IMG/VR virus record: IMGVR_UViG_3300025949_000098
Location: 1-21,072 of that record
Length of the DNA stretch: 21,072 nt
DNA from: a virus
Direction: 5' to 3' (one strand)
The notes beneath the pieces are model-generated. The model was not told the DNA's origin. It worked only from the letters and a program-made list of their open reading frames with translations, and did no database searches. This document shows positions 1,177 through 15,519 of this stretch, one piece after another; the stretch's first letter is position 1; each line of letters begins with the position of its first letter. A program made the translations under genes and the position numbers.

Positions 1177-1809
1177 TTATGCCTGACCGCTGCGTGTGGT
1201 CAGGTCTTGCGTATTCATCATCACAGCCAGCCACTGATTGTCGTTGGTGCCGACGTATGAGGGGCTGATGCAGGGAGCAGCCGGGCTGAAGCCAGGCGTC
1301 ACACCCACGATGCCGACGATGCGGAACGGCAAGGTGCTGGTGGTCGCCGCGTTGGCAACATCCAGAGCACATGTGCTCAGACCGGAGCCGGTAACCGGCG
1401 CAGCGCTGGTGCCAGTCGAGATGTCGACGTTCTTGCCGATCGCTGTGGCTGTGACCGCCGTGCCCTTCGCCTGGCAGTAGAGCACCATGCGTGGATCGGC
1501 CATGACCTTGACCGACACCGCGACGCTGGAGGTCAGAGCCGGCTGCAGCCACGCCGGGTGATAGCGCCCGCCGAGGATGTTGTTCGGATCAAAGTAATTA
1601 AGCCCCAACGCGATGCCGTCGATGGTCGTGCCACCGTTGGCCACCACGTTGATCATCCCGTTCGTGTCCTGCTTGACCGGATCACCGAACGCGATGTTGG
1701 AGGCGTAATTCCAGGTAAGCTGCCGGTCCCAGATTCCGAAGTTGGTCGGCGATCCGCCGAACATGAACACCGGATGGAAACCGCTGGGGGCGAATGTGTT
1801 CGCTGCCAC
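1177..1809 (-). CDS. Putative capsid decoration / head-associated structural protein
   Basis: A 210-residue protein when the GTG at 1809 is used. This start gives an N-terminus (VAANTFAPSGFHPVF) resembling a widespread phage virion family that begins M-A-N-x-x-x-P-x-G-F-R-P-V. Further family-like features are a GDPVK segment near residue 50, a G-x-x-L-G-x-x-Y segment, and a C-terminal part with ADPRMVLYCQA, a Gly/Thr-rich linker, STLPFRIVGIVG, and a final variable-to-NTQ strand. Such proteins sit next to the major capsid gene and are thought to decorate the shell. An upstream in-frame GTG at 1878 would add 23 residues but has no ribosome site; for 1809 a GGAG lies ten bases upstream. The assignment rests on remembered family pattern and position, not on a search. 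Confidence 0.6.
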   Translation of the reverse strand: MAANTFAPSGFHPVFMFGGSPTNFGIWDRQLTWNYASNIAFGDPVKQDTNGMINVVANGGTTIDGIALGLNYFDPNNILGGRYHPAWLQPALTSSVAVSVKVMADPRMVLYCQAKGTAVTATAIGKNVDISTGTSAAPVTGSGLSTCALDVANAATTSTLPFRIVGIVGVTPGFSPAAPCISPSYVGTNDNQWLAVMMNTQDLTTRSGQA

Positions 1810-1829
1810 GTCCAGTCCACTCCATACGT

Positions 1830-1851
1830 CCCCGGTCCATAAGGACCGGGG
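1830..1851. promoter_or_regulatory. Perfect 9-bp hairpin between divergent genes
   Basis: The sequence reads CCCCGGTCC, a four-base ATAA loop, then GGACCGGGG: a perfect GC-rich nine-pair stem. It lies in the short gap between the minus-strand decoration gene (start at 1809) and the plus-strand glycosyltransferase frame. On the plus strand the 3' arm runs into GGGGAGAATTGG, which looks like a ribosome site for a TTG at 1860. No T-run follows on either strand, so it is not a classical intrinsic terminator. It could modulate translation, act as an RNA processing site, or block read-through with Rho. Confidence 0.6.
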
Positions 1852-1982
1852 AGAATTGGTTGCGATTGACTGGAACACCCAGCTGGCAGGCGAACGACAC
1901 GCAAACCTGCTTCGGCTCAGCCGCGCATCAACATTCCGACGCGGAATGGCGCGCTTGGCTGGCCGGACGCTACGGGATCGGT

Positions 1983-2735
1983 ATGTCTTTCGTCAAGGAC
2001 TATGCTACTGACGCGCGCATGGCAGACATCACCTTCATTTCCGCCTATGGCGGCATAAACAATGACAACCTGGACCAAGTAGCTGCCCGACTGCACAAGT
2101 CGGGTCTCTGGGACAACCTGACGACGGTCATCTTCTCGCCCGTGACCAAGGCCGTCCCGACGCTATCAGTCGTCTCTTGGGGTAGCCTGCAGCACCCGCC
2201 GAACACTCAAGTCGCCCGGCTGTACTCGATCGACCACGAAGTGGGGTACGCTTACTCTGAGGTAATCGATGAGGTAATTCTGAAGAACGAACAGCTATCC
2301 AAATGGAAATTCCTGCTCACGATCGAGCACGACAACCTGCCGCCGCCGGATGGCATGATCCGTCTGCTGGCGCGGATGCAGGAAAATCCGCACCTCTCGG
2401 CGATCAGCGGCCTCTACTTCAACAAGGCGGAAAACGGCTTCGCCCATATCTGGGGCAAGCCGGGCGAGAACCATTTCTGCCCGCAGCCACCGGCAACGGA
2501 CGGTTCGCTGGTCGAGTGCCACGCGGTCAGCATGGGCTTTACCCTGTTTCGGATCGAGATGTTCAAGGACGAGAGGCTGCCGCGGCCCCTGTTCGAGACC
2601 AAGGCAACCGCCACAAGAGTGCGAACGCACGATCTGGACTTTTGGGCCAATGCGTCTGAGCTAGGCTACCGCTGTGCCGTCGACTGCGGATGCCGCGTCG
2701 GCCACGTCGATCTGGAAACTATGACGGTGTGGTAG
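1983..2735 (+). CDS. Glycosyltransferase-like protein (GT-A fold), plus-strand moron candidate
   Basis: A 250-residue protein from the ATG at 1983. It has an initial beta strand (ADITFISAYGG), a helical middle, a strand leading into an acidic motif (LLTIEHDNLPPPDG, with EHDN at 115-118 in the place of the nucleotide-sugar/metal-binding EDD or DxD of GT2-like enzymes), then SAISGLYF, and a C-terminal HDLDFWANASELGYR ending in VGHVD. That layout matches GT-A enzymes that transfer sugars from nucleotide-sugar donors. The start is uncertain: the frame is open back to 1794, and a TTG at 1860 has the best ribosome site (GGGGAG), while an ATG at 2019 would begin right at the first strand. It is the only plus-strand gene inside the head block and overlaps the 3' end of the next minus gene by 17 bases, suggesting later insertion. 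Confidence 0.7.
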   Translation: MSFVKDYATDARMADITFISAYGGINNDNLDQVAARLHKSGLWDNLTTVIFSPVTKAVPTLSVVSWGSLQHPPNTQVARLYSIDHEVGYAYSEVIDEVILKNEQLSKWKFLLTIEHDNLPPPDGMIRLLARMQENPHLSAISGLYFNKAENGFAHIWGKPGENHFCPQPPATDGSLVECHAVSMGFTLFRIEMFKDERLPRPLFETKATATRVRTHDLDFWANASELGYRCAVDCGCRVGHVDLETMTVW

Positions 2736-9290: not shown

Positions 9291-9908
9291 TTAGTTCCTG
9301 CATTCGGGATGGCGCGCTTGCTCAGCGCGGCTCCATCTGTTGAAAGCTGTAGCACTGCACCACGCGGCTCGGTCACTAAAATTCGCAGTGAGCGGCTTTG
9401 GCGGTGGCGATACTGGTGCCGCATCCGGCACCGCTGCGCGCACCACCGGGTACTGATCTGCCAGCACCTTCATGGCGATGTCGGGATGGCCCATGTTGTA
9501 AAGCAGCTCCGCCAGCTTGCGCGCGTTGCAGTCGGGGCTGATCCACGACGGCCCAATTCCGCCACCACCAATCGGCCCGCTGCCGCCGGCACTTAACCCC
9601 ACAGTCGGACAGTCCATGCCGGACGCACCGACCGAAGGCAGCGACCATGCCGGCGCTGCGAAATTGACGGACGGTGCAGCGGGAGGCGCTGCACCGCCCA
9701 CGCCACCGCCGGGCGCAGTGACGGTGACGTTTGTGGTAGGCGCATTCACCAGTTTCTGGCCCTGGCGCTGCACCTGATGCTGCATTTGTGCTTGGTTCTG
9801 CTTCGCCACCGCGTTCTGTGACTGATCTTGGTTCCAGGCGAACGCCGTCGCAGGAAGCACGATCAGTGCAGCAGCAACAAGTTTCACGTGAAGCATTTTA
9901 CTACTCAT
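9291..9908 (-). CDS. Exported phage protein with Gln-rich and Gly/Pro-rich regions
   Basis: A 205-residue protein with a Sec-type signal peptide (KLVAAALIVLPATAFA, cleavage after AFA near residue 24). The mature part starts with a Gln/Asn-rich segment (QDQSQNAVAKQNQAQMQHQV), then a Gly/Pro/Ala linker, then a conserved-looking core: MDCPTVGLSAGG, GPSWISPDCNARKLAELLYN, MGHPDIAMKVLADQYPVV. The pattern of two cysteines around a Gly-rich stretch followed by a short helical pair recalls uncharacterised exported proteins in several podovirus genomes. The C-terminus (WCSATAFNRWSRAEQARHPE) has two more Cys. The start could also be the ATG at 9896. Probable location is the periplasm; function unknown. 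Confidence 0.65.
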   Translation of the reverse strand: MSSKMLHVKLVAAALIVLPATAFAWNQDQSQNAVAKQNQAQMQHQVQRQGQKLVNAPTTNVTVTAPGGGVGGAAPPAAPSVNFAAPAWSLPSVGASGMDCPTVGLSAGGSGPIGGGGIGPSWISPDCNARKLAELLYNMGHPDIAMKVLADQYPVVRAAVPDAAPVSPPPKPLTANFSDRAAWCSATAFNRWSRAEQARHPECRN

Positions 9909-9923
9909 GATTCTAACAACCTG

Positions 9924-10292
9924 TTAGCCCATTGTGCCCGACGCAAAGCAGTCGATTGTGGGGGCGCCTTCATAGCCATCGAGGTGCCGATACCAGACAA
10001 TCGGCTTGCCGATCGGATTGGCGCCGTTCCCTGGATCAACGATCGCTCCCCGAGGAACGTCCCACCATCTATTTTCTATTAACACCTGGTAAACACCATT
10101 GTAGGTGCGCCATTCTTCTTCGTTCAGCACGACGCCATCTGCTTCACTGCAGCACGGCACGCTGCCTTGATGCGCGGTCTGCCGCTCGAACCATTGGTGT
10201 GTGGGACTGGAAAGATCGGTGCCCGGCGGCGGAGCAGCTATTGCAGACACCGGCAGCAGGCAAAGAACAAAGATCCGCAACGCGCGAGACAC
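9924..10292 (-). CDS. Small exported Cys-containing protein
   Basis: A 122-residue protein from a GTG at 10292, with a signal peptide (MSRALRIFVLCLLPVSAIA, cleavage near residue 19). The mature domain contains an adjacent cysteine pair (VPCCSEADGVVLNEEEWRTY), a Trp-rich strand pair (ENRWWDVPRGAIVDP), then IVWYRHLDGY and a terminal CFASGTMG. This arrangement (Cys-Cys, W-x-V-P, terminal C-F) resembles small exported proteins common in rhizobial genomes. Disulfides in the periplasm are likely. It follows the terminase stop by nine bases. The role is unknown; a capsid operon is an odd place for two exported proteins in a row. Confidence 0.65.
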   Translation of the reverse strand: MSRALRIFVLCLLPVSAIAAPPPGTDLSSPTHQWFERQTAHQGSVPCCSEADGVVLNEEEWRTYNGVYQVLIENRWWDVPRGAIVDPGNGANPIGKPIVWYRHLDGYEGAPTIDCFASGTMG

Positions 10293-12047: not shown

Positions 12048-12130
12048 CCTCCGGTCTTATCCCTACCCCGATACCATCCGCAACTGATACAACCGAGCGG
12101 GGCACCAAGATGACTTAAGGAGAGTTGGCC

Positions 12131-12430
12131 ATGTCTGGCTCTATGCAACACCAGATGGCCGTCAGCCTGCGCGACGACGTGGCTCGCCTACATGAGCACG
12201 TGGAGAAAGTAGACGACAAAGTCGACACCATGGCGCTGCAGGTGGCCGTCAACGATACGCATGTCACGCGGATGGTGAAGGAGCAAACGGAAACCAACGC
12301 GAAGTTGGAAAAATTAGACGCCAAGGTGGAGAAGCTAAACAGCCTGAAAGCGCAGCTTCTTGGGGGCGTCGCCGCCATCGGCTTCGTCGTCACCCTTGTG
12401 GTCGAGCTGCTTCGGATCTGGTTCCACTAG
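12131..12430 (+). CDS. Coiled-coil protein with C-terminal TM segment (XhlA-like)
   Basis: A 99-residue protein from the ATG at 12131, with AAGGAG eight bases upstream. Residues about 14-72 are a charged coiled coil (RDDVARLHEHVEKVDDKVDT, later NAKLEKLDAKVEKLNSLKAQ), and residues 74-97 form one transmembrane helix (LLGGVAAIGFVVTLVVELLR) ending IWFH. This is the architecture of XhlA-type lysis accessory proteins and of several holin-associated factors. It diverges from the terminase, with only 83 bases between, in which I see no convincing promoter. Its 3' end overlaps antisense to a probable minus-strand gene by 96 bases. Lysis-related function is inferred from architecture. Confidence 0.65.
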   Translation: MSGSMQHQMAVSLRDDVARLHEHVEKVDDKVDTMALQVAVNDTHVTRMVKEQTETNAKLEKLDAKVEKLNSLKAQLLGGVAAIGFVVTLVVELLRIWFH

Positions 12431-12551: not shown

Positions 12552-12791
12552 CTACCGGCCATATACGTAAACATTGGGCGGCCCCTGCATTAACTGCGCC
12601 CCCACCGCAGTCGTGCCCGCCCACATCGCCCGGTCCCGCTGGTCAATCGCCATCTGCTGATGAACGCAATCCCAGTAGTGCTGCGATCCAGGCGTGGCTC
12701 CCAACTGACGGCAGAAGCTAGAAACCCTCTGTGCATAAGGTGTGCATCCCGACAGAAGAACCGCAAGTAACAGCATCGCGCGCGCAGGCAT
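12552..12791 (-). CDS. Small lipoprotein
   Basis: A 79-residue protein with a type II signal peptide: MPARAMLLLAVLLSGC, with lipobox LLSGC and lipid-modified Cys16. The mature part (TPYAQRVSSFCRQLGATPGS then QHYWDCVHQQMAIDQR) contains a C-x10-C spacing around G-x-x-P-G-S-x-x-Y, a pattern I associate with small lipoproteins of alphaproteobacteria. The ATG at 12791 has GGAGG six bases upstream. A phage lipoprotein near lysis genes can be an Rz1-type spanin component, but the sequence lacks the Pro-rich character of Rz1, and no Rz partner in the usual overlapping frame is obvious. Superinfection exclusion is another option. Membrane location is secure; role is not. Confidence 0.7.
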   Translation of the reverse strand: MPARAMLLLAVLLSGCTPYAQRVSSFCRQLGATPGSQHYWDCVHQQMAIDQRDRAMWAGTTAVGAQLMQGPPNVYVYGR

Positions 12792-13051: not shown

Positions 13052-14611
13052 CTACGTGTACAAGATCGTAACCGACGGATCAGGAAAGCTGATGCTCGTC
13101 GTAACCCCACCCGTCACATTGACCGTCGTGCGCGTCCCATCCACACCAGGCGTCTGCACCGAGGAGGTCATCTGCCACATGTTTACCGTCCCATTCCCCT
13201 GCGCATTCAGCGACGCCCCAAGCGGAACATGGCTCAACGCCACCGTCCCGCTCTTGGCGCCCAGCCCAGGATTGACGATCGTCATGCCAAACCGCCCCGA
13301 CGCAGGCGTCGTCGCAATCACCTTCAACCCATTCGGATTGGTCGGAACACTCCACCGCGACCCAAACACATTCCGAACGCCAGCCCCCATGTAATACGCA
13401 ATCGGCGTCGTCTGGATCGAAGTGCCATTGCCATTGTTGTCAGCAATCACGCCATTGAACGCCTGCCCACCATCATCCCAAATCGCCAGCCACATCGGGC
13501 ACTTGCAAGCACTCAAATTGTTGAACTGATTGACCGCCAGCCACGTCACCGCGTCGATCGACCACATGTCCGGCCGGTTGCCATTAAACCCCACATTGCC
13601 CGCAACCATGACCGATGTCGGCGTGTATCCAGCCGGCATATCAGTCGCGAAAAGATTGCTGATCCCCGGCGACATCCACTGCTGCGCATACGTCGGACTG
13701 GTGTACATCGGGGGACCCAGCGGCGTACTGCTGCCATTCCCGTCATTGAACGCATCCCACGTCACGCCATCAGGCTTCGGACTGCACGCCGTCAAAAAGC
13801 TCTTGGTGTTCGCACCCTGATAAAACGACCACACCGGCCCCGACACAACATAGCTCGAGCTGACCGCCTTCACCGCCGAGGTCATCGCGCTGTAATAGCT
13901 CGCCGTGGTCGTCGGCCCGAAGCTGTCCGGCTCATTGTGCCCAATGCACCCAATGAACGGCACAGACTTGCCGTTCGGCATCACTCGCCCAGCACCGCCA
14001 TTGTTCCACCACGCAGCCATGTTCCCTTGAGCCTGCGCATAAACAGCCGTGCTCGAGAACTGCGGAAACGCATTGAAATTACAGCCGAACAAAATGCCAG
14101 ATATGCCCAGCGGATCGACTTTGAAAAAATTGTTCACCAAGTTCGCCATGGCAGTCGGGTTCACCACAGTAGGATTGCCCGATCCATCATTCGTCCAAAA
14201 CGGCGTCGCCCCAGCCACCGTGTTCCCAGTCACAACATGCAGACCAGGATTGGCCGTCGCCATCGCCGTGGTAAATGTCGAATTGGAGTAAGCCGCAAAG
14301 CTGTTCGTGTTCGTCCCGCCACGGTTCGTCGCGTCGGCGCCATACCCCATGTAAACGCCATACATCCGCTGCGACACAACCTGCTGCGTCGCCGTGCCCG
14401 TGTAGTTCTGCGCTGACGTGAAGTCAGCCGTCAGAAACGCACTGCTCGCCGCTGGGCCATTGCCACCCGAACCACACGCATACGCCTCTGGTATGAATAA
14501 ATCCCCGAACCTGAGCAGCCGACGCCGCTCCTCCTCCCCGCACGGTTCCGCCACCGCCGGCCCAGCAATGATCGCCGCACCACCACCCAGCAACGCACGG
14601 CGCCCAATCAT
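13052..14611 (-). CDS. Exported glycoside-hydrolase-like protein (TIM-barrel with NEPD motif)
   Basis: A 519-residue protein from the ATG at 14611, which overlaps the upstream stop as ATGA. It starts with a Tat-like leader (MIGRRALLGGGAAIIAGPAV), followed by a short module (CGEEERRRLLRFGDLFIPEA then YACG) shared with the upstream gene product. The main domain looks like a clan-A glycosidase barrel: FIGCIGHNEPDSFGP near residue 227 places a Glu where GH5/GH39-type enzymes have the acid/base. The second catalytic Glu is not obvious; the candidate later strand reads PMWLAIWDDGG. A C-terminal beta-sandwich (about 430-519) follows. It may cleave or bind host or extracellular polysaccharide. Exact GH family is uncertain. 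Codons look more often T-ending than in the portal gene, possibly a separate origin. Confidence 0.65.
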   Translation of the reverse strand: MIGRRALLGGGAAIIAGPAVAEPCGEEERRRLLRFGDLFIPEAYACGSGGNGPAASSAFLTADFTSAQNYTGTATQQVVSQRMYGVYMGYGADATNRGGTNTNSFAAYSNSTFTTAMATANPGLHVVTGNTVAGATPFWTNDGSGNPTVVNPTAMANLVNNFFKVDPLGISGILFGCNFNAFPQFSSTAVYAQAQGNMAAWWNNGGAGRVMPNGKSVPFIGCIGHNEPDSFGPTTTASYYSAMTSAVKAVSSSYVVSGPVWSFYQGANTKSFLTACSPKPDGVTWDAFNDGNGSSTPLGPPMYTSPTYAQQWMSPGISNLFATDMPAGYTPTSVMVAGNVGFNGNRPDMWSIDAVTWLAVNQFNNLSACKCPMWLAIWDDGGQAFNGVIADNNGNGTSIQTTPIAYYMGAGVRNVFGSRWSVPTNPNGLKVIATTPASGRFGMTIVNPGLGAKSGTVALSHVPLGASLNAQGNGTVNMWQMTSSVQTPGVDGTRTTVNVTGGVTTSISFPDPSVTILYT

Positions 14612-15519
14612 GGCACCGGGCCGGTGCCAGGCAGCCAATACGCCACGTAATCAACCTGCCCAAACGACGGCGATGCCACAGGCGCCGAGATAAATCCCGT
14701 CCCGCCCGCAGTCCCGCCACTGAACCAATCCAAGAAGATAAACATCGGATTGACGTAGCCAGCCGGCAGCGCCGTCGACACCTGCACCACACGATCAATG
14801 AGCAGCGAAACCTGTGTGTTCGTGACCTTCACGCCATACTGATGAAAGCCGGTCACATTCACCGGCTGCGCCATCTGGAACGTGAACCACTGAAACGTCT
14901 CAGTGTCAGTCGCAGGGTCCCAAACATCGAAACCCGCAAAGTGACTGCTGTCAGCGTTCGTCACACAATCGAATATCCCGATCTGCTGACGCCCGGTCTG
15001 ATCATTCAGCCAGAAAACAAAATTACTCCCCGGCAACACCGGAACCGCAGCACGAACCTCCCAATACCCCTGTACCGCATGCTGGAACGTGTTGAACGTG
15101 TGCAGCTGCCCGCCAATCAACGCATCCCCGCCCGTGTTCGTCGGGTTGGGCGAATTGTCGATCCGCATCGAGAGAATGGAGTTCGATACCGTATACACAT
15201 TGTTATACGGCGTTGCCGGGTTGAACGGATTGACCACCCACACGCCGCTGAAGTCCTGCCCGTCAACGAACGTGCTGAAAGTCCCCGCCGGCTGCCAAGT
15301 CCCGCCCGCCGCTGTGTTGCGCGTGTTGTAAAGGCTCAGCGTGTTGAAGTCGTCCGAGAAGAACGCACCAGCGATCGGGTTGTTGCCGCACGCATACGCC
15401 TGCGGGATCAAGCCAAACTTCAGTAGCTTGCGACGCTCCTGCTCGCCACAGTCCGCATACGCCATCCCAGGCAACGCAGCCGCAGCCCCCGCCAATAAGC
15501 TACGACGAGCTATCAACAT
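14608..15519 (-). CDS. Exported GH16-fold protein with substituted catalytic motif
   Basis: A 303-residue protein from the ATG at 15519 (a GTG at 15543 would add eight residues). The leader (MLIARRSLLAGAAAALPGMA) is Tat-like, followed by the same CGEQERRKLLKFGLIPQAYA-type module as the next gene. The rest matches the jelly-roll of GH16 (laminarinase, lichenase, ExoK succinoglycanase): FFSDDFNTLSLYN, a GGQLHTF strand, GYWEVRAAVPVLPGSNFVFW, HQYGVKVTNTQVSLLIDRVV and FIFLDWFSGG. The catalytic E-x-D-x-x-E strand is, however, QIGIFD (residues 179-184): all three acids are altered (Gln, Gly, Asp). It may therefore bind rather than cleave sugar. The fold is fairly secure; activity is doubtful. Confidence 0.72.
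   Translation of the reverse strand: MLIARRSLLAGAAAALPGMAYADCGEQERRKLLKFGLIPQAYACGNNPIAGAFFSDDFNTLSLYNTRNTAAGGTWQPAGTFSTFVDGQDFSGVWVVNPFNPATPYNNVYTVSNSILSMRIDNSPNPTNTGGDALIGGQLHTFNTFQHAVQGYWEVRAAVPVLPGSNFVFWLNDQTGRQQIGIFDCVTNADSSHFAGFDVWDPATDTETFQWFTFQMAQPVNVTGFHQYGVKVTNTQVSLLIDRVVQVSTALPAGYVNPMFIFLDWFSGGTAGGTGFISAPVASPSFGQVDYVAYWLPGTGPVP

Follow-up and report, generated by a model that had tools for sequence, protein, structure and literature searches.

Phage proteins directed at polysaccharides are mostly known as tail enzymes. In phages with multiple tailspikes, a common N-terminal anchor domain is carried by different carbohydrate-directed bodies; to our knowledge these anchors are virion-bound and have no export leader before them. 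Phage GH16 proteins are already known, including the beta-glucanases of Sinorhizobium/Rhizobium phages (phiM12, RHph_X2_24) and minor tail proteins of Curtobacterium phages, and so is a secreted, inactive GH16. The latter, Rv0315 of Mycobacterium tuberculosis (PDB 4wzf), had no glucanase activity by assay and keeps the two catalytic glutamates, its inactivity being attributed to an open groove (PMC4606783).

The locus described here lies in a window of 21,072 bases (the whole stretch of DNA that was analysed; IMG/VR record IMGVR_UViG_3300025949_000098), which is a piece of a tailed-phage genome. The terminase was 26-34% identical to phage records (best 25 of 850 matches), including those of Roseobacter and Pelagibacter phages, and the portal was 25-34% identical to phage records (17 of 17 matches), including those of Roseobacter, Pelagibacter and Caulobacter phages. 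All 21,072 bases of the window were found, at 100% identity, within the 67,331-base contig IMGVR_UViG_3300005563_000004, and the finding therefore counts as one instance, not two. Its features are the following:

14608..15519, minus strand: gene 1, encoding a 303-residue protein with a Tat-like leader, the shared module and a GH16-fold domain with a degenerate active site
15519 (ATG) or 15543 (GTG, the start in the list of open reading frames), minus strand: start of gene 1, from the sequence
15451..15519, minus strand: leader of gene 1, MLIARRSLLAGAAAALPGMAYAD, residues 1-23, with RR-x-LL, a core hydropathy of 1.66 and an A-Y-A site
15385..15450, minus strand: shared module of gene 1, CGEQERRKLLKFGLIPQAYACG, residues 24-45
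14629..15363, minus strand: GH16-fold domain of gene 1, about residues 53-297 (EglC profile over 53-292, model residues 47-297)
14968..14985, minus strand: QIGIFD, degenerate GH16 active-site motif of gene 1, where most relatives have E-x-D-x-x-E
13052..14611, minus strand: gene 2, encoding a 519-residue protein in which that leader and module precede a different body of unproven fold
14543..14611, minus strand: leader of gene 2, MIGRRALLGGGAAIIAGPAVAEP, residues 1-23, with a core hydropathy of 1.85 and an A-V-A site
14471..14542, minus strand: shared module of gene 2, CGEEERRRLLRFGDLFIPEAYACG, residues 24-47
13925..13939, minus strand: HNEPD motif of gene 2, residues 225-229

The ATG of gene 2 (14611) overlaps the stop codon of gene 1 as ATGA, and the two genes are probably translationally coupled. 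Counting against the interpretation favoured below, neither ATG was preceded by an evident good ribosome site when inspected by eye.

An initial annotation of the window had described a shared leader and two-cysteine module in the two adjacent genes, and the likeness proved real and its coordinates exact. Residues 1-70 of the gene 2 protein aligned with residues 2-64 of the gene 1 protein with 36 of 70 positions identical (51%; E 5e-16 in a two-sequence BLASTP), and gene 1, used as a protein query against its own record, retrieved gene 2 at E 2.6e-13. The alignment comprised the leader, the module and a looser stretch extending to about residue 64-70. The modules aligned as CGEQERRKLLKFG--LIPQAYAC (gene 1) against CGEEERRRLLRFGDLFIPEAYAC (gene 2), with a score of 96, against 44 for the best of 5000 shuffles (0 reached 96); the leader pair scored 50, again attained by 0 of 5000. 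The two module cysteines are 20 (gene 1) and 22 (gene 2) residues apart. The remaining domains had been called unrelated. The similarity faded beyond the module: the approximately 30 residues directly after it still scored 36, a value that 37 of 10000 shuffles attained, and over 90 residues counted from the same point the score did not stand out from shuffles (813 of 2000). We also considered the module as an internal repeat, i.e. a second copy of the leader (RR-x-LL..AYA), and found no support for this, the score being reached by 219 and 842 of 5000 shuffles.

Codon counting by the method of Nei and Gojobori, on one pair of sequences with 21 aligned module codons, gave a pN of 0.11 and a pS of 0.78 for the module (5.5 non-synonymous changes at 48.2 sites, 11.5 synonymous changes at 14.8 sites). 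The corresponding values were 0.36 and 0.54 for the leader, and 0.38 and 0.67 for the part after the module. The excess of silent changes was significant in the module (Fisher p 2e-5, rounded counts) and was not significant in the leader alone (p 0.17) or the downstream part alone (p 0.12). The module also had a lower pN than the parts on either side of it (p 0.0017), making it the most constrained part of the shared N-terminus. A chance match was rejected by the shuffles (module and leader) and by the codon analysis. The identity of 51% (E 5e-16), together with the difference between pN and pS in the module, indicates an old duplicate that is held in both genes by selection on the protein. 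Purifying selection of this kind would fit a shared role such as the anchoring or pairing that had been suggested.

As had been thought, the module corresponds to no named domain, searches of Pfam, PHROGs and NCBIfam being empty. Other proteins carrying it did not turn up: with the patterns used, viral, phage, plasmid and genome searches yielded no copy outside its own genome. Among viral contigs, whole gene 1 gave 12 stretches, whole gene 2 gave 2, and an alignment of the shared region gave 31, the own record alone being confirmed each time; an IPxAYACG-type pattern gave 7, one being the own record and six looking unrelated on translation. In genomes, the same pattern gave 30 stretches, and translation of all of them (30/30) showed neither the leader nor further parts of the module; the alignment gave 130, none of which was confirmed with two patterns, IPxAYACG not among them. 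In tblastn, neither gene matched the phage collection, and the module region matched one phage record at E 6, taken as chance, and no plasmid. A profile had matches at E up to 10 in 6 of 7 genomes; three of these loci were examined further, and the best match (3e-5) spanned the leader only. Blastp of both genes against 80 loci of terminase relatives found no relatives at E 0.05, and we found no description of such a module in the titles and abstract openings of open-licence papers. What is new is a strongly constrained N-terminal segment, shared by two different bodies and, with the patterns used, unseen elsewhere in the collections searched.

The interpretation that we tentatively favour, at a little under an even chance, is that the two coupled proteins are exported, that their common N-terminal segment docks or matures both of them, and that one of them holds polysaccharide. 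Both leaders have RR-x-LL near the start, a core without charged residues and an A-x-A site 1-2 residues before the module. Their core hydropathies were lower than the values of 2.43-3.12 for seven further leader-like N-termini in this phage, which were picked by eye and include one lipoprotein, and were close to the 1.82 of a Csp1-like protein encoded in an alphaproteobacterial metagenome-assembled genome. This protein, which matched the Csp1-family copper storage model TIGR04401 (TAT_Cys_rich) at E 2.7e-6, below that model's cut-off, has a leader very similar to that of gene 2 (score 69, reached by 0 of 10000 shuffles); the likeness is confined to the leader, and the CGE..AYACG module is absent. 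Among the 294 open frames of the contig, only gene 1 and gene 2 passed a custom Tat-like filter, written after both leaders had been seen; in 80 related viral loci, 5 of 3219 open frames passed it. The full Tat consensus is S-R-R-x-F-L-K, and neither leader has it in complete form. Pfam TAT_signal (PF10518) matched neither protein up to E 10, and it matched the Csp1-like protein only at E 0.023, below cut-off. Judged from these leader features, Tat export of both proteins is plausible. Small proteins with RR-x-FL Tat-like leaders were also seen on two other terminase-related viral contigs (L032:8834-9328 and L043:4030-4446), and another frame that passed the filter, in L051, looks like a lipoprotein.

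The export-type leaders on both proteins, and a similarity that starts at the leader and continues through the module, could also mean that an export cassette was duplicated and the module is just its last part, i.e. a pro-region or spacer for clean Tat/Sec export or signal-peptidase processing that has no partner. We consider this possible but rather unlikely, since pN is lower in the module than in the leader itself (0.11 versus 0.36) and an incidental spacer should show the reverse.

Of the two bodies that follow the common segment, that of gene 1 had been assigned a GH16 fold, and profile and model both bear this out. NCBIfam NF052454 (EglC, endo-1,3-1,4-beta-glycanase) matched residues 53-292 at E 2e-17, with 63 bits, far below the equivalog cut-off of 700. 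Pfam GH16 (PF00722) did not reach gene 1 up to E 10; of the other viral GH16 proteins scanned, it matched 7 of 7. The AlphaFold model (pLDDT 59, pTM 0.65) had GH16 structures as its top Foldseek matches and aligned with laminarinase 6jhj over 208 residues (VIA-align Z 21.8, rmsd 2.7) and with the Rv0315 structure at Z 19.6. The GH16 domain begins at about residue 53, after the end of the module, which is thus not an ordinary glycosidase N-terminus.

The GH16 catalytic pattern is given as E-x-D-x-(x)-E (PMC4606783). In gene 1 the active site reads QIGIFD, the nucleophile E being replaced by Q, the D by G and the acid/base E by D, a loss that the initial annotation had missed. E-x-D-x-x-E was kept in 4 of 4 aligned bacterial relatives and in 8 of the 9 further viral GH16 domains in the alignment, the ninth, from locus L156, having DIDVMK. 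Six further viral contigs included five with an intact motif; in the sixth, L185, the first domain has QMDLMK and the last domain ends before the motif in the stretch examined. A second L156 protein is also degenerate at the motif, and L156 has an intact one beside it. In loci L156 and L185, which contain multiple GH16 domains, the catalytic motif is degraded in some of them, so that decay of the motif is not unique to gene 1 among viral GH16 domains. Because its catalytic motif is replaced, gene 1 probably encodes no active enzyme; it is probably a GH16-fold pseudoenzyme and probably sugar-binding. Rv0315 is like gene 1 in having a GH16 fold and a signal peptide; it differs in that its two catalytic glutamates are not replaced, and it is not a phage protein. 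Among phages, a viral GH16 query matched 25 records, and two of the proteins, when translated, had intact or nearly intact motifs (PPEIDMMEW, PPETDMMEW) and, by eye, no export leader, unlike gene 1. The viral relatives of gene 1 were in eight contigs besides its own and in six more. Seven of 385 alphaproteobacterial genomes had matches at E 0.01; GH16 proteins were recovered at loci in four of the seven and none at L144 and L147, and the match L146 is probably not a GH16.

The gene 2 protein had been described as barrel-type, which we could not confirm. It had no match in Pfam, PHROGs, NCBIfam or PDB sequence searches, and its AlphaFold model, from a two-row alignment, had a pLDDT of 27.8. In the order to which the Rhizobium genome G002 belongs, no genome matched at E 0.01 (0/297). 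Among 385 genomes of the class of G002, 34 had matches at E up to 1, with a best value of 0.003; 9 of the 35 places listed were examined, on truncated alignments, and taken as chance. The motif HNEPD is the only hint of a clan GH-A barrel. In this clan, the Asn-Glu-Pro acid/base motif lies at the end of strand 4. The body of gene 2 is possibly a clan GH-A-like barrel. With a barrel unproven in gene 2 and Q/G/D in place of the catalytic E/D/E in gene 1, the proposal of two glycosidases was unsupported.

A 988-residue viral protein (L154:4104-7067, in IMGVR_UViG_3300036828_000126) contains a GH16 domain with an intact motif and a second half with a CLNEPES motif. Gene 2 matched this C-terminal half in BLASTP at E 0.017 over 92 columns, a likeness that phmmer --max and hhalign did not support. 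If the two were homologous, the gene pair might be the split form of such a fusion; we set the fusion aside as proof for the pair, the E value being too weak and phmmer and hhalign silent. A scan of close relatives with the L154 half gave its own record only, the phage collection gave none, and 3 of 385 genomes matched, two of which were examined and look unrelated.

The gene pair sits between the endolysin gene (Glyco_hydro_108, E 2e-4; endolysin PHROG, E 2e-6), which is upstream, and the terminase gene, which follows downstream after a small lipoprotein-like gene (LLSGC motif); the matches to tail and virion proteins are elsewhere on the contig. This neighbourhood fits a late, envelope-directed role better than membership of the tail gene block. 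Between the terminase and the lipoprotein-like gene, on the opposite strand, window 12125-12430 (plus strand) encodes a coiled-coil-like protein with a C-terminal hydrophobic stretch; its matches were to coiled coils only, weak and below cut-off, and a holin or spanin-like role is possible. Another frame that runs opposite to its neighbours, window 1794-2735 (plus strand), is glycosyltransferase-like by eye; a Pfam search with 1878-2732 gave no match at E 0.01.

The same layout bears on the proposal of a virion-attachment peptide, in which the segment would fix two sugar-directed domains to one site of the particle and the hydrophobic leader would stay uncleaved. One N-terminus on different bodies, as in the anchors of multi-tailspike phages, would suit this, as would the L154 protein, in which an intact GH16 domain is joined to a half with an Asn-Glu-Pro motif, and the annotation of the GH16 match in Curtobacterium phages as a minor tail protein. 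We nevertheless regard a virion anchor as improbable, given that the pair lies outside the tail block and that the leader has the parts of an export signal. It is very improbable that the segment is a relic without special role, left when recombination carried the beginning of one gene over to its neighbour. Such copying would be easy between adjacent, overlapping genes, but in a relic silent and amino-acid-changing sites should both decay, and here pS is near saturation (0.78) with a module pN of only 0.11.

More export-like leaders or lipoboxes were noted by eye in the same phage, in the window at 9291-9908, 9924-10292 and 12552-12791 (minus strand) and outside it at L016 18341-20000, L018 1635-3434 and L018 5434-5691 (plus strand); some of these proteins fall inside the structural gene block. 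Also outside the window, L018:3448-5430 (63448-65433 of the 67-kb contig) encodes a relative of the GH5 endocellulase E1 (PDB 1ece, E 1.2e-9) with a Sec-like leader. The C-terminal part of this protein resembles that of a 996-residue open reading frame upstream of the L154 fusion gene (phmmer E 5e-6), and a search of the phage collection at E 0.001 gave no relative of the protein. Because this GH5-related protein, at the other end of the contig, has a Sec-like leader, the phage may export sugar-directed proteins more widely.

Under the favoured interpretation of docking or joint maturation, a tailed phage would produce both proteins by coupled translation of genes 1 and 2, and both would leave the cytoplasm by means of the twin-arginine-type leader. 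Cleavage at A-Y-A or A-V-A would let the mature protein start 1-2 residues before the segment of about 22-24 residues. Outside the cytoplasm, the two cysteines could form a disulfide-closed helical hairpin, in a region where the gene 1 model (leader and module) had a pLDDT of 33-47. Through this segment the two proteins would dock at a common partner or envelope site, or undergo a common maturation step. The gene 1 protein, a GH16 jelly roll without catalytic residues, would hold polysaccharide without cutting it, and gene 2 would contribute a different body, possibly the GH-A-like barrel.

A more daring version, which we think unlikely, is that CGE-x-ER..IP-x-AYACG is a new phage docking domain that works outside the cytoplasm and gathers retired glycosidases on the host envelope, where they grip polysaccharide of the surface or periplasm. 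If this were true, the grip could serve to block further phages, to gather new virions or to aid release. For the favoured interpretation, if it is true, the exported pair and a GH16 without catalytic residues would point to the holding of sugar at the envelope of the infected cell, a use different from that of the tail enzymes. The module would provide a short, specific handle with which to find more such proteins in metagenomes.
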